NCBI RefSeq assembly: GCF_014696435.1
Contig: NZ_JACJQG010000020.1
Location: 54,103-118,102, forward strand
Reading direction: 5' to 3'
DNA length: 64,000 nt
From: Calothrix anomala FACHB-343
Lineage (GTDB): Bacteria > Cyanobacteriota > Cyanobacteriia > Cyanobacteriales > Nostocaceae
A program made the position numbers and the translations under genes. The stretch's first letter is position 1, and each line of letters begins with the position of its first letter. A model generated the notes under the pieces. It made no database searches. It saw nothing but the letters and a program-made list of their open reading frames with translations, and was not told the origin of the DNA. This document shows, piece by piece, positions 54,682 through 62,392 of this stretch.

Positions 54682-56280
54682 TTATAAAATTGGTGGCAGT
54701 CCTACTGCTTGAGGTTCAACAAACTTACCATCAAAGCTGATAGTTTGGTTTTCGATAGTTCTAGCATCAGCTAGCGCCTTACGAAGTTCAGCAGATTCCA
54801 TGCGATCCTTAATTCCACCTAAGATATAAATTAGTAACTTCGCCGCTAAATCTCGCCCTGCAACTTGTATGCGCTTTTTATTGGGATCGTATAAAACGCC
54901 ATACCAAAGAGATTGTGGATACTCCATACCACTAAAGCCACCTTGCTGATCGAATTTGCGTAATTTCTTAAAAATATCTGTCAGGGAAAAACCTTTTTTA
55001 AAAACCAAGATTCCCAAAGCTTGAGCTAATGCCACTTGAGCAATAGGGCGGAAAAGCATATTTCCTTCCCCTCCATCTTTTTCAAAACTGAAGCGTCGTA
55101 ATTGCGGTGTATCTTCATGTTCCAGAATTTTATAACTGGGAAGGCTGGCTAAAGCATCAAATAGTTTTCTAAATTCATTAATTCCTTCTTCAATTTCATT
55201 ATCTTCTGGGCGCATAGGAATTAAACCTTTTTCTACAGGTTTCCAATGAGGAAATTTTTGCCCTAAATATCTCTCTGACATATCTTGAATAGCTTGCAAA
55301 GTTGTTAACACTGTGGAATTTGCTGCAACTGTTGCACTATTCCAATTAACACGAGGTTTGCGTTCTGGCTGTTGTGCTAAAAGCGGATGATTTGTGGCAA
55401 TTTTTCGGGCGACAATTGCAAAACCATCATCTTCATTTAACTGTACTAATTGACCTTTAGTTAAAGGTGCAGCCATTAGGTTAACATGGACAAAAATCGA
55501 TCTCACTCTGCGTCTGGCTTGAGTGCGAGTTTCTCCAGACGCAACCGCACAAATAAATTCGATCCCAATTTTTTCTTTAGATAAGCTTTGTAAATAAGCA
55601 GGATCTACTTGATATTGCTCAATCAAATCATCTATTTTAATGAAACTATCATCAGCAATTTTATCTTTTTTATAACGCTGAAGTTTTCCTGTTTTAATTA
55701 ACTCCATTAAACCTTGTACACCCATCAATCGATGTTGACCATCTAATGCATAAATAGTGACATCATCTTCAGAAATATTCAGTAAACCTACTTTACCGTC
55801 TTTATCCAAAGGCGTAAAATCGGTAGTTGATTTAGTTGCGATTCCCTCACTATTCCACTCAGCAGCTTTGGGATCGTCCACCCAAGATTGATTAATTACC
55901 ACCAATACCGGGGGAAACTTATGATTTTTTCTTGCTGATAAATACTGTACCAAAGGTGCTTGACGAGACCAATCTAAGGGGCGTTGCTGAATTTCATCAA
56001 TACTATCTGCGTCAATTTCGATGTTATCAGTTTCAGAATTATACTTATTCTGAAACAGAGGTAAACCAGAAGCGAAGTGAACCCTACCTGCGAACCATTC
56101 CAGACTGACAGAACCAACATAAGCTTCCGTTCCACCCATCTCGGTTTTCTGTACTAAAATCCGATCCTTTTTCTCCAAAAACTTCTCTAAAAGTAAAGCA
56201 AGTACCTGTTTATCCTTGGTTTCCCGTTCTTGGTATTCTCTAGCGATGTCAGCAGTTGGATCGGATTTACTGTCTTTCAT
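54682..56280 (-). CDS. DndB-like DGQHR-domain protein
   Basis: 532 residues. The DGQHR motif is exact at 180-184 (ALDGQHRLMG), followed by an FVHVNLMAAPLTKGQLVQLNEDD segment typical of the domain. The protein is longer than classical DndB (about 365 residues), so it is called DndB-like. In other bacteria DndB represses dnd transcription and limits modification. It is divergent from dndC with a shared 163-bp intergenic region that contains an 18-bp perfect palindrome (56346-56363). The DNA-binding site is unproven. Confidence 0.82.
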   Translation of the reverse strand: MKDSKSDPTADIAREYQERETKDKQVLALLLEKFLEKKDRILVQKTEMGGTEAYVGSVSLEWFAGRVHFASGLPLFQNKYNSETDNIEIDADSIDEIQQRPLDWSRQAPLVQYLSARKNHKFPPVLVVINQSWVDDPKAAEWNSEGIATKSTTDFTPLDKDGKVGLLNISEDDVTIYALDGQHRLMGVQGLMELIKTGKLQRYKKDKIADDSFIKIDDLIEQYQVDPAYLQSLSKEKIGIEFICAVASGETRTQARRRVRSIFVHVNLMAAPLTKGQLVQLNEDDGFAIVARKIATNHPLLAQQPERKPRVNWNSATVAANSTVLTTLQAIQDMSERYLGQKFPHWKPVEKGLIPMRPEDNEIEEGINEFRKLFDALASLPSYKILEHEDTPQLRRFSFEKDGGEGNMLFRPIAQVALAQALGILVFKKGFSLTDIFKKLRKFDQQGGFSGMEYPQSLWYGVLYDPNKKRIQVAGRDLAAKLLIYILGGIKDRMESAELRKALADARTIENQTISFDGKFVEPQAVGLPPIL

Positions 56281-56443: not shown

Positions 56444-58090
56444 ATGGCTACAGCACAACAGCCAGAAAATAAAAGCCAGCGATCGCGTACCGTTGCAGAT
56501 TTAGTAGAAGACATAGAGAATCTTACCAAAGAAATCCAAGATTTATATTGCTCAGATCAAATACCTTGGGTGCTAGGAGTCTCTTGGGGGAAAGATTCTA
56601 GTACAACGCTACAGTTAGTCTGGAATGCGATCGCTCTTCTTCCCCAAGAAAAACGAACTAAAAAAATCCATGTAATTACTACAGATACTCAGGTAGAAAA
56701 TCCTATCGTCTCTGCTTGGGTACGCAAATGTTTACAACAGCTAAAGTCTGCAGCACAAGCACAAGGAATGCCCGTAGAACCGCATTTGCTGCAACCAGTT
56801 GTTCAAGACACATTTTGGGTCAACCTGATTGGTAAAGGTTACCCAGCACCGCGTAATCAATTCCGTTGGTGTACCCAAAGATTGAAAATTAATCCAGCCA
56901 ACCACTTTATCCGTGAGATGGTGCGTGCCAACGGTGAAACTATCGTAGTTTTGGGTACTCGCAAAGCCGAAAGCACAAAACGTGCAGCGACAATGGAAAA
57001 GCATCAAATGGGCAGAATACGCGATCGCCTCAGCCCCAATGCCAGTTTACCTAACTCTGTAATTTATACGCCCATTGAAGACTGGAGTAATAATGATGTC
57101 TGGATTTATCTCAATCAATATGACAATCCTTGGGGAAACAGCAATAAAGAATTATTTAGCATGTATCGCGGGGCGACAGCAGATAACGAATGTCCCCTTG
57201 TAGTTGATACTTCCACACCTAGTTGTGGTGATTCTCGCTTTGGTTGTTGGGTTTGTACCTTAGTAAATCAGGATAAATCAATGGAGGCGATGATCCAAAA
57301 TGATGAAGAAAAAGAATGGATGCAGCCTTTATTAGATATTCGCAATGAATTAGATATTAAAGACGATCGCGAGAAAAGAGACTTTCGCCGCATTTGGGGT
57401 GAAGTGCAATTATTTGAGCGCAATAAAGATGGGGACATTTCTGTAGAACCAATACCTGGCCCATATACTAAATATTGGCGTGAATATTGGCTAAGGAAAT
57501 TATTAGCAGCGCAAACTCAAATCCGCCGCACAGCACCAGAAAATATGCGCGATATAACTTTAATTACTGTTGAAGAAATGAGCGAGATTCGCCGCATTTG
57601 GCTAGAAGAAAAACACGAATTTGATGATAGTTTACCCCGTATTTATCAAGAAGAAACAGGTGAAATTTTCCGCGATCCTCGTCCTGGGGCTGATAATAGT
57701 TTACTGGGTAGTGATGAATGGGCGGTACTAGAAGAAATTTGTGCAGATGACGGTATGCACTTAGAATTGATGGCAAAATTATTGGATACAGAACGCCAGT
57801 TTCGTAAAATGGCGCGGCGTGTTGGGATATATGAAACGTTAGAAAAATGCTTTACAACCAGTTCCCGTTCTAAAGAAGAAGCAGTAAGAAATGCTCATTT
57901 AAAACGGGATTTGAAAACAGCAGTTGATCAAGGTGATGTGGCACGGGTTAAGCAGTTAACTTTAGGAGATTTTACATCAGCAAAAGCAACTGCGGAAGAA
58001 ACCAATGAATTACCCGCTAGTAAATCCAAAACTTGGGGAAATATGAAATTTAAAAACAAAGAAACAACGCCAGATAGTGATTCTCAATAA
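56444..58090 (+). CDS. dndC: DNA phosphorothioation system sulfurtransferase DndC
   Basis: 548 residues. ATP pyrophosphatase/PAPS reductase-like domain with the PP-loop SWGKDSS (46-52) and a cluster of cysteines suited to a 4Fe-4S centre (Cys250, Cys261, Cys268, Cys271) plus Cys143. DndC activates the DNA backbone and inserts sulfur delivered by a cysteine desulfurase (DndA or IscS). GAAAGGAG precedes the ATG. No DndA or DndE gene follows; the next gene is unrelated, so the missing functions must come from elsewhere. Confidence 0.9.
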   Translation: MATAQQPENKSQRSRTVADLVEDIENLTKEIQDLYCSDQIPWVLGVSWGKDSSTTLQLVWNAIALLPQEKRTKKIHVITTDTQVENPIVSAWVRKCLQQLKSAAQAQGMPVEPHLLQPVVQDTFWVNLIGKGYPAPRNQFRWCTQRLKINPANHFIREMVRANGETIVVLGTRKAESTKRAATMEKHQMGRIRDRLSPNASLPNSVIYTPIEDWSNNDVWIYLNQYDNPWGNSNKELFSMYRGATADNECPLVVDTSTPSCGDSRFGCWVCTLVNQDKSMEAMIQNDEEKEWMQPLLDIRNELDIKDDREKRDFRRIWGEVQLFERNKDGDISVEPIPGPYTKYWREYWLRKLLAAQTQIRRTAPENMRDITLITVEEMSEIRRIWLEEKHEFDDSLPRIYQEETGEIFRDPRPGADNSLLGSDEWAVLEEICADDGMHLELMAKLLDTERQFRKMARRVGIYETLEKCFTTSSRSKEEAVRNAHLKRDLKTAVDQGDVARVKQLTLGDFTSAKATAEETNELPASKSKTWGNMKFKNKETTPDSDSQ

Positions 58091-58230: not shown

Positions 58231-60759
58231 ATGCTTGCATCTGGTGATACAGTGATTTGGCTACAAGAACGCACGCCTTTAGGAATTTTCTCACCTAAGG
58301 TGTTAGAGGCGATCGCACAAGCGATGGAGTTACAAGTTATACCTGAAGGTAAAACCTTAGTCACCGCAGATACTCCGCCAGAAGCACTTTACATCGTGCA
58401 AGACGGACATTTAGAGTGTGAAACTAGTAATCAAAATTACTCAGCTTTAGCCCGTGGTTTTCTTCCTGGTGAAGTTATTAACCTACAGGAATTACTCTTA
58501 GACGAATTCGCCCCATTCACAATTATTACCCTGAATGAATGTCATTTGTGGACAATCCCGGCTGATAAATTTCGCGGTTTAGCTAGTCAATATCCAGAGA
58601 TAAATCAAGCTTTTTCGCGCTTATTAGTGCAAGAATTAGCGGAAGTGACATCTGCTTTAAGCTACGAACAAGAACGGGCGATCGCATTACGTCCATATTT
58701 AGTCACCAAAGCACAACGGGGAATTGTCGGTACAAGCCGTTATGCTGTGCGCTTGCGGGAGCAAATTCGCGCTGCTGCGGGCGATCGCTTATCTGTAGAT
58801 ATCTTTGGCGAACCGGGTTTAGAAAAAGATAATATCGCCGCCTTAATTCATTTTAGTTCACCCCGACGCCGCGAACCGATTATTAAAATTAATTGCAGCA
58901 TTCTCCAAACTAGTGGTGTAGATTTATTTGGTCGTGCTGGTGGTAAACCTGGACTTTTAGAATTGTTGGGGGAAGGTAGTTTAATTCTCAATAATATTCA
59001 AGAATTACCCCCAGAATTATTACCAGCTGTCGCCCAATTACTGCAAACAAATACATATAATCCGGTGAGTCGTCCGGGAGAACCAAAAGCCGAACCCCGT
59101 ACCAGTAAAGTTAAGATTTTAATTGTCTCCGAAAAAGCCCAATCAATCATCGAACGTCAAGTAGGTCATGTCATTAAAGTCCCACCGTTGCGGGTACGTA
59201 AAGCCGATATTAAAGCGCAAGTAGAATATTACACCAGCCTCTACAGTCGGGCGCGAGGTTTAACTAAACCCCATGTCACCCCAGAAGCGTTACGCCGCTT
59301 GCAAGCTTACGATTTCCCCGGTAATCTCAAAGAATTAAAAAATTTAGTCGAAAGAGCGATCGTTCAAGTTGGCGAAGGGAAAGAATTAACAGAAGAAATA
59401 TTTTGGTCAGCAGAACCGAAGAAAAAGCAATTTCGCGTCAACTTGTTAAATATGTATCCAGGGTTGCGCAAGTTTTTACGCAGTGATTGGTGGCCAGATC
59501 GCATTAACTATGGTTTTACTGTTGCGGCGTTTGCTTTTTTGGTTGGTGTATTATTTATCGGGCCGCAAACACGCGATCGCAATTTCGGTTTAATCTTATT
59601 TTGGGCTTGGTGGTGGCCTGTCTTTCTCTTCCTCTTTCCCTTTTTAGGAAGGATTTGGTGTGCCGTATGTCCCTTCATGATCTACGGTGAAATTACGCAA
59701 AAACTATCACTCTGGTTGTTTCCCAGACAACTCAAACGCTGGCCGCGAGAACAAGCTGAAAAATGGGGTGGATGGTTTTTATTTGGGCTATTTACCTTAA
59801 TTTTTCTCTGGGAGGAACTCTGGGATTTAGAAAACACCGCTTATCTCTCCGCTTGCTTGCTACTCTTAATCACCGCCGGTGCAATGATTTGCTCTGCAAT
59901 ATTTGAACGGCGATTTTGGTGTCGCTATCTTTGTCCTATTGGCGGAATGAACGGTTTATTCGCCAAGCTATCAATGACAGAACTTAGAGCGCAACAAGGT
60001 ATTTGTTCGGCAACTTGTACCACTTATCAATGTTACAAAGGCGGGCCGCAAAAAGGCGAGGGAATGGAAACCGATGGTTGTCCTTTATACTCTCACCCCG
60101 CCCAATTGGAAGATAACAGAGATTGCGTATTATGCATGACTTGCTTAAAAGCCTGTCCCCATCGTTCCGTAGAATTTAACTTACGTCCCCCAGGAATTGA
60201 ACTTTGGACAACTCATGTACCGCGCAGTTACGAAGTTGCACTGTTATTTTTATTATTAGGTGGTATATATCTGCATCGCTTACCAGAAATACAAGCTTGG
60301 TTAGGGCTAAACTTTGATTTAACTGTTTTTTGGCAGCACACAGAATTATCTCTCATAACTTTACTCGTTCCTATTACAATTCCTTTAGCCGCTTATGGTT
60401 TAACCAAACTATTTAATTTTGGTCGCAAACCTAAGACATTTATTGAGTTAGCCTATGGCTATTTACCATTAGTATTAGGAGGTAACCTAGCCCATTATCT
60501 CCATTTAGGCTTGGCAGAAGGCGGACGGATTTTACCCATCACTGTTGCAACTTTTGGGTTAAATAACGAGCAATTACCGACATTAGTAGCCCATCCAGCA
60601 GTAATTGACTTTTTACAAGGTACAACCCTAATTTTTGCTGTGTTATTGTCGATACTGCTAACACAAAAAATAGCAAGACAACCAATAATCACCTTGATTT
60701 GGCAACACTTAGCGACTATTGCCTTAGCAGGTAGTATGTGGGTGATTATTGTTGCATAG
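58231..60759 (+). CDS. cNMP-binding / degenerate sigma54-type AAA / polyferredoxin membrane fusion
   Basis: 842 residues. A cyclic nucleotide-binding-like domain lies at about 10-120. A sigma54-activator-type AAA domain follows (about 160-390), but its Walker A reads GEPGLEKD instead of GExGTGKE, Walker B reads LILNN, and the GAFTGA loop is missing, so ATPase activity and sigma54 contact are unlikely. About nine membrane helices follow from residue 425, with NapH/NosR-like cysteine motifs CAVCPF, CRYLCP and ICSATCTTYQC and the classical CVLCMTCLKACP ferredoxin cluster. Cyanobacteria have no sigma54. The C-terminal half probably moves electrons across or along the membrane while the N-terminal half senses a ligand (inference). 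The electron donor and acceptor are unknown. Confidence 0.85.
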   Translation: MLASGDTVIWLQERTPLGIFSPKVLEAIAQAMELQVIPEGKTLVTADTPPEALYIVQDGHLECETSNQNYSALARGFLPGEVINLQELLLDEFAPFTIITLNECHLWTIPADKFRGLASQYPEINQAFSRLLVQELAEVTSALSYEQERAIALRPYLVTKAQRGIVGTSRYAVRLREQIRAAAGDRLSVDIFGEPGLEKDNIAALIHFSSPRRREPIIKINCSILQTSGVDLFGRAGGKPGLLELLGEGSLILNNIQELPPELLPAVAQLLQTNTYNPVSRPGEPKAEPRTSKVKILIVSEKAQSIIERQVGHVIKVPPLRVRKADIKAQVEYYTSLYSRARGLTKPHVTPEALRRLQAYDFPGNLKELKNLVERAIVQVGEGKELTEEIFWSAEPKKKQFRVNLLNMYPGLRKFLRSDWWPDRINYGFTVAAFAFLVGVLFIGPQTRDRNFGLILFWAWWWPVFLFLFPFLGRIWCAVCPFMIYGEITQKLSLWLFPRQLKRWPREQAEKWGGWFLFGLFTLIFLWEELWDLENTAYLSACLLLLITAGAMICSAIFERRFWCRYLCPIGGMNGLFAKLSMTELRAQQGICSATCTTYQCYKGGPQKGEGMETDGCPLYSHPAQLEDNRDCVLCMTCLKACPHRSVEFNLRPPGIELWTTHVPRSYEVALLFLLLGGIYLHRLPEIQAWLGLNFDLTVFWQHTELSLITLLVPITIPLAAYGLTKLFNFGRKPKTFIELAYGYLPLVLGGNLAHYLHLGLAEGGRILPITVATFGLNNEQLPTLVAHPAVIDFLQGTTLIFAVLLSILLTQKIARQPIITLIWQHLATIALAGSMWVIIVA

Positions 60760-61777: not shown

Positions 61778-62392
61778 TTAAAGGTCGTATGTTATTGCTT
61801 CTATAGCTTCTGGATATTCATCACAATAATCTTCAAAAGCTGTTTTTACAAACTTTTCAGAGCGTTGATGTGCTATCTCTGCTTGGATTTCTTCAACAAC
61901 ATCCCATGCAGCCGCACATTCTTGCGAACGAACGCCTGTTTGCGCGCAGACTAGGCGAGCTTTCTGAATTTCGTCTTGTAATTCTTGTTCTAATAACAAT
62001 GTTCGTGGTTGTTCCAAAAACTCACTATGAGCCAGAATATCGGTGAGTGAGACTATTCCTAATAGCTCGCCTTGGATAACTGGCGCTCTGTGAAGATGAT
62101 GTTGAGCAAATAATCGGGCTACATATTCCAAACCAAGGTTGGGATTAATAGCAATACAAGGCTTAGTCATAATTTCATATACACGCATGGTTTGGGGATC
62201 TTTACCATGAGCTATTACCTTATAAGCAATATCGCTTTCGCTAATAATCCCATAAGCATCTTGTTCGTTACGACGATCCACAATTAACGCCCGCCAGTCT
62301 CTTGATCTTAAGAGTCTCACAGCTTCAGCAACAGTCGCAGAACTCCGAATTGTAGCAACATCTTTCGTCATGATATCTGCTGCTTTCAACAT
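61778..62392 (-). CDS. CBS-domain pair protein
   Basis: 204 residues. Two CBS repeats (about 1-65 and 70-128): MTKDVATIRSSATVAEAVRLL and MTKPCIAINPNLGLEYVARLF. They end in a charged C-terminal helix with three Cys (about 145-205). CBS pairs bind adenine nucleotides and regulate partners. The lack of any catalytic domain suggests an adaptor. It is encoded next to a DUF3122-like and a universal stress protein gene, all on the minus strand, but separated by more than 200 bp of repeats, so not one tight operon. Confidence 0.87.
   Translation of the reverse strand: MLKAADIMTKDVATIRSSATVAEAVRLLRSRDWRALIVDRRNEQDAYGIISESDIAYKVIAHGKDPQTMRVYEIMTKPCIAINPNLGLEYVARLFAQHHLHRAPVIQGELLGIVSLTDILAHSEFLEQPRTLLLEQELQDEIQKARLVCAQTGVRSQECAAAWDVVEEIQAEIAHQRSEKFVKTAFEDYCDEYPEAIEAITYDL

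Follow-up and report, generated by a model that had tools for sequence, protein, structure and literature searches.

What function is left to an AAA domain of the sigma54-activator type when its catalytic motifs are altered or missing, and when its fusion partners are a sensor-like domain and an iron-sulfur membrane half? The question is raised by a gene of Calothrix anomala FACHB-343, located in the 64,000-nucleotide stretch of DNA analysed here (the window), in which the open reading frame exactly at positions 58231-60759 (+) encodes one 842-aa protein with an ATG start. In our best explanation, to which we give close to an even chance, it would be a membrane electron-transfer protein of the NapH/NosR/FtrD kind, in which the AAA domain of a former activator acts as a non-hydrolysing regulatory or docking module, and which has a sulfide-linked sister.

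The composition given in the original prediction, namely an AAA domain of sigma54-activator type fused to a cNMP-like domain and a NapH/NosR-like half, was confirmed by Pfam and NCBIfam matches (Table 1), and the Pfam E-values rule out chance similarity of the domains. Among solved structures, the AAA core is matched best by VpsR, then by NifA and NtrX-type proteins, with PspF and FleQ also among the matches listed. In the membrane half, Fer4_5 is over its gathering score (Pfam, 3e-6), and residues 465-650 match a NapH/MauN-like NCBIfam model (TIGR02163, 1.5e-12) with 47.6 bits against a model cut-off of 213.05, indicating that the protein is a relative of NapH and not NapH itself. Approximately eight hydrophobic segments follow residue 425, according to a simple hydropathy average.

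Table 1. Features of the gene and its protein, with positions in the window.
Feature	Residues	Window positions	Strand	Evidence
Whole gene, 842 aa, stop codon included in span		58231..60759	+	ORF and homologues
CRP-like (cNMP_binding) domain	36-121	58336..58593	+	Pfam, 46.9 bits vs cut-off 27.5, E 2.7e-12
AAA core, sigma54-activator type	165-296	58723..59118	+	Pfam Sigma54_activat, 47.4 bits vs 20.2, 2.2e-12
Altered Walker A, GEPGLEKD	193-200	58807..58830	+	Column counts in alignment
LFGRAGGKPG at deleted GAFTGA loop	232-241	58924..58953	+	Alignment with four activators
LILNN at Walker B position	251-255	58981..58995	+	Alignment, column counts
AAA lid	321-389	59191..59397	+	Pfam AAA_lid_14, 6.7e-13
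NapH/NosR-like membrane and iron-sulfur module	404-660	59440..60210	+	Pfam, NCBIfam, alignment
CX2CP motif	C477, C480	59659..59673	+	Invariant in 101/101 rows
CX3CP motif	C564, C568	59920..59937	+	Invariant in 101/101 rows
Eight ferredoxin-like cysteines	C592 to C642	60004..60156	+	Each in 100 or 101/101 rows
C-terminal membrane part, without Pfam family	661-842	60211..60756	+	Pfam, alignment, hydropathy

The window protein belongs to a widespread cyanobacterial family. At E 0.001, a match was present in 136 of 291 genomes drawn across the phylum, a count that includes weak single-domain matches, and a genome-contig scan confirmed 518 related stretches, the best 80 of which are all cyanobacterial by title. 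The nearest relatives, being the best of the 518, are from Calothrix brevissima NIES-22 (96%) and Tolypothrix sp. FACHB-123 (94%). Most full-length homologue rows have no internal stop, and a few carry one; because full-length homologues without such a stop are common, a sequencing error that fused the frames of two genes, a danger pointed out in the original prediction, was excluded. A literature search over titles and abstract beginnings of open-licence papers found no description of this protein family.

Aligning 157 homologues and counting columns by branch, we distinguished three branches, here named A, B and C, with the window protein in branch A; the 138 branch-A rows include the window protein, and some may be near copies. 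A paralogue in the same genome (G000:C115), which is 42% identical and carries the Walker A motif GQAGTGKT, belongs to branch B. In branch A, G193, E194, K199 and D200 occur in all 138 rows, while the altered positions of Walker A are 197 (L in 136) and 198 (E in 117, G still in 17), and Walker B has N254 in 136 and N255 in 134 rows. The Walker lysine K199 is kept in every row of each branch in this alignment (138/138 A, 9/9 B and 8/8 C). Among the 44 branch-B rows longer than 650 residues, G198 and K199 are found in 44 and T200 in 43, and at Walker B 22 rows retain the aspartate, while every row has another residue in place of the glutamate (N 39, Q 4, H 1); that is, the GKT P-loop is retained and the catalytic glutamate is missing. 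As for branch C, all eight rows read GEPGLEKD, and five of the eight retain D254. Of two scanned C proteins, one has an AAA core just over the cut-off of 20.2 bits (20.3) and the other falls short of it (17.1), and most C matches start near residue 150, suggesting that the CRP-like domain is missing in most of this branch. Branch-A genes at two loci (L093 and L095) were also matched from about residue 110 only, with an in-frame TGA upstream within the match, and the CRP-like domain may be decaying there too.

GAFTGA, Walker A, Walker B and the arginine finger are the named motifs of sigma54 activators. When four ordinary activators were used as the alignment reference for 46 family rows, only 0-3 of the nine GAFTGA columns were filled in the family, against 9/9 in the four activators, and the columns of the arginine-finger loop were nearly empty in all 46 rows from all three branches. 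The family shares with sigma54 activators (VpsR, NifA, NtrX type, PspF and FleQ) an AAA core and lid that exceed the Pfam cut-offs, but it differs from them in having no GAFTGA loop, no arginine-finger loop and no catalytic glutamate, in the absence of a helix-turn-helix domain from the scanned members, and in the altered Walker A of branches A and C. The motif loss originally predicted is therefore true of the window protein as regards the missing GAFTGA segment and the Walker B sequence LILNN, while its Walker A is altered with the lysine kept; the loss does not extend through the family, since branch B, including the copy in the same genome, keeps GKT. Intact Walker motifs are nevertheless not the rule among homologues. 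A branch-B query gave a match at E 1e-100 in 245 of 388 genomes of the class, and the intact P-loop marks a minority sister branch, found in at least 45 of the 388 genomes (rows of at least 57% identity) versus the 245 with any strong match.

The order of these losses was considered with two trees. The AAA tree, calculated from 22 of 49 A rows, 16 of 44 B rows and 8 C rows with the Walker columns removed and rooted on the four activators, contained a branch that sets A and C together apart from the rest (99/99), and it recovered B as a single group (100/99). Since the two loop losses and the missing glutamate are common to all branches, they look older than the branch split on this tree, and the grouping of A with C suggests that Walker A was altered once, in the A+C line. 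Asparagine at Walker B is a property of A and not of C and, given that five of eight C rows keep D254, its appearance is not one shared loss. In the membrane tree, calculated from 106 rows that included neither the rhizobial ones nor the too-short C row of L058, B and C each formed one group (100), but the A+C grouping was not recovered, as C clustered with B next to a single A row and the program flagged the long branches involved.

Every part of the protein is under purifying selection. Over 210 pairs from 21 Nostocales genes (the window gene and 20 of the best 80 loci), the median dN/dS was lowest in the transmembrane and iron-sulfur part (0.037), followed by the lid (0.057), the pseudo-AAA core (0.093), the C-terminus (0.109) and the CRP-like domain (0.183). 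The median dS is above 1, and the ratios rise slightly when only pairs with dS below 1 are considered (to 0.118 in the AAA core). The low ratios show that the dead AAA domain is maintained by purifying selection, less tightly than the redox half.

CRP has a phosphate-binding arginine. Columns 78-101, the approximate stretch in which phosphate binding is expected, have no conserved arginine column, the maximum being column 96, where 23 of 138 A rows have R, and this makes cyclic-nucleotide binding by the CRP-like domain doubtful. Of the redox device proposed originally, the pseudo-ATPase stands as a conserved domain, as does its fusion with a sensor-like domain and an iron-sulfur half, while a dead AAA ring is putative.

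In the iron-sulfur half, all 101 cyanobacterial rows have C477, C480, C564, C568, C592, C596 and C601, and C617, C632, C635, C638 and C642 occur in 100 of them, one C row being the exception. Two motifs, CX2CP and CX3CP, each preceded by membrane helices (placed by hydropathy only), together with eight ferredoxin-like cysteines, would constitute a predicted [4Fe-4S] electron-transfer module, with the number of clusters deduced from the cysteine pattern. Similar CX2-3CP motifs after helices and ferredoxin-like cysteines are known from NapH/MauN, NosR and FtrD, but the window protein is fused to CRP-like and AAA domains and has an extra C-terminal membrane part. The NapH clusters are said to be on the cytoplasmic side, according to PMC5449189.

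The same membrane module exists without any CRP-like or AAA part in standalone "4Fe-4S binding proteins" of Deinococcus ficus (452 aa, 30.6% identity over residues 404-817) and of haloarchaea (Halobaculum, 25.8% over residues 430-809), implying that it works without the AAA part in these organisms; in the alignment, however, some of the ferredoxin cysteines are absent from the four haloarchaeal rows. H755 is found in 6/6 non-cyanobacterial module rows, 40/49 A rows and 39/44 B rows, and is absent from the C rows displayed.

Gene neighbourhoods provided a lead for branch B. On plasmid pPg_03 of Pseudanabaena galeata, the branch-B gene is directly followed by cysK, and nearby lie genes for DsrE, glutaredoxin-family, rhodanese, DUF3365, DUF4079, petC, psbA, NifX-like and ArsR proteins, as well as for a FAD oxidoreductase that is SQR-like below the cut-off. 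A similar locus is present on plasmid2 of Aulosira laxa, where the B gene is annotated as a nitrogen assimilation regulator. Neighbours were then counted in 48 B loci of varied length (the duplicate L224 dropped), 121 A loci and 8 C loci (L054, with no recognised target, dropped), and cysK was called adjacent when it lay immediately downstream in the same orientation, at a distance of at most 700 bases. In B, cysK (cysteine synthase) was present in 32 loci and directly downstream in 29, and SQR-like, rhodanese or DsrE genes in 20; the corresponding numbers were 4, 0 and 0 for the 121 A loci, 2, 0 and 0 for the 41 A loci outside the Nostocales scan, and 0, 0 and 0 for C. The difference in adjacency between B and A is large (Fisher p 3e-20), with loci that are related to one another and with a count that favours B because the reference genes were all chosen from four B loci; by subtraction of these four, 26 of 44 remain. 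The B loci with cysK downstream span 11 family codes plus two named plasmid records, but cysK was downstream in none of the three B loci of the window's own family, the paralogue in its own genome included. At L043 and L045, B loci carry Hdr-like (by reading of translations), SQR-like and rhodanese genes instead, all in one direction.

Cyanobacterial sulfide islands contain sqr, arsR and psbA, and B genes lie beside SQR-like, ArsR, psbA, petC and rhodanese genes, whereas branch A is not located in such islands. That psbA genes occur near sqr in cyanobacteria, as reported in PMC5061849, supports the reading of B loci as sulfide islands; "cysteine synthase", "cyclic nucleotide" and "4Fe-4S" are all absent from the main text of that source, so the family gene is not described there by those words.

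For branch A, the neighbourhood comparison found no neighbour conserved across families. The original prediction had suggested a co-occurrence check with respiratory or nitrogen genes: among 22 genomes with branch A and 22 without, hand-chosen and with kinship ignored, nifH occurred in 14 vs 8, cytochrome bd in 16 vs 17 (one of the latter as fragments only) and NiFe hydrogenase in 15 vs 20, which is no clear link to any of the three. The lead from context is sulfur, and it is for branch B only. In branch C, the genes at L057 (9073-12195) and L058 have a 4-base overlap with an upstream short-chain dehydrogenase-like gene and are followed in the same direction by a FUR-family gene (by Pfam for L057) and a further gene, and a tie of this branch to iron or metal is possible.

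Our best explanation draws on the constancy of the cysteines while the AAA motifs change, on the selection on every part, on the loop deletions in all 46 family rows, and on the domain matches, the A+C branch, the standalone module and the cysK adjacency of B as against A. It is weakened by the absence of a conserved neighbour in A, by the own-family B loci without cysK and the choice of reference genes from B, and by the membrane tree and the retained D254 in C. The cytosolic front end would be a former sigma54-type activator, and the iron-sulfur half would connect the membrane with a partner by electron transfer. Rather than performing ATP-driven work, the CRP-like and AAA half might sense or dock a partner and tune the redox half. 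The most economical interpretation of B is a switch that binds ATP but does not hydrolyse it and that acts in sulfide or cysteine metabolism, and in A, including the window protein, the AAA domain may be a fixed structural or docking module. A more far-reaching version has a rather small chance of being right as a whole. In it, a sigma54-activator ATPase would have been converted stepwise into a transducer that serves an iron-sulfur electron line without hydrolysing ATP, giving a membrane redox signalling family; the P-loop branch would be a sulfide or persulfide switch linked both to the synthesis of cysteine and to the reduction of quinone, and the dead branch a housekeeping form.

Other functions have to be weighed against this electron-transfer reading. 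VpsR and FleQ bind c-di-GMP, and with VpsR as the best solved-structure match and FleQ also matched, the pseudo-AAA domain could still be a ligand sensor, which would hold a nucleotide (ATP without hydrolysis) or a dinucleotide in its altered pocket and signal to the redox half. The universal K199 and D200 of branch A and its nearly universal GEPGL exceed what a bare scaffold would need, and B retains GKT; however, position 198 is mostly glutamate in A, and the Walker B acids are lost there, both of which speak against it, and we give this sensor a rather small chance. Much less probable is a membrane-tethered transcription regulator working with sigma70, even though the AAA and CRP-like domains derive from regulator families and the A. 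laxa gene bears the annotation of a regulator. Pfam found no DNA-binding domain in the window protein (E 0.01) and no helix-turn-helix domain in any of the five proteins scanned, namely the window protein and two members each of B and C. The loops that work with sigma54 are deleted, and no Sigma54_DBD match was found in this genome, the only one for which the premise of the original prediction, that cyanobacteria lack sigma54, was judged and in which it holds; the control search was positive in 4 of 14 genomes and negative in Synechococcus elongatus. The two best Sigma54_activat matches in the genome are the window gene and its paralogue.

Electron supply or uptake for metal handling, as for FtrD in the FtrABCD iron system, was also considered. 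The Ftr system includes a component FtrD, as stated in PMC11966278. A rhizobial 4Fe-4S protein resembling the D. ficus module lies beside FTR1, cupredoxin and iron transporter genes, and it is probably FtrD in view of these neighbours; in addition, the gene next to the branch-C one on its downstream side in L057 belongs to the FUR family, and ArsR, MerR-like and ArsP_1 genes occur in B loci. On the other hand, the rhizobial match is to the D. ficus protein only, with 26-32% identity over 42-47% of that protein, the rhizobial protein is not among the matches listed for the window protein, and no FTR1 is annotated in the B regions of P. galeata pPg_03 and A. laxa plasmid2, which leaves metal handling unlikely.

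An activator motor domain thus persists in a genome where no sigma54 was found, and it has been under selection after losing catalytic motifs. Because dead and P-loop-bearing sisters reside in one genome, experiments on a cyanobacterium that can be cultured could directly address the purpose of the dead AAA domain. Should the link of branch B be real, an unstudied membrane redox protein would join the gear with which cyanobacteria cope with sulfide.

Finally, the surroundings of the window gene itself hold several other genes. A dndC gene (window 56444-58090, +; TIGR03183, 729 bits) lies 140 bases upstream and is adjoined by a DGQHR/DndB-like gene (54682-56280, -). The PP-loop of dndC reads SWGKDS in the window and SGGKDS in the two closest relatives, to which dndC is 82% and 75% identical, compared with 96% and 94% for the target protein. 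A dndC/DGQHR link as a trait of the family was rejected, as it was found in only 2 of 179 other loci, both belonging to the closest relatives. Downstream, on the opposite strand, a gene at 61778-62392 (-) encodes a CBS-CP12 fusion protein, both Pfam domains of which are over the cut-off.
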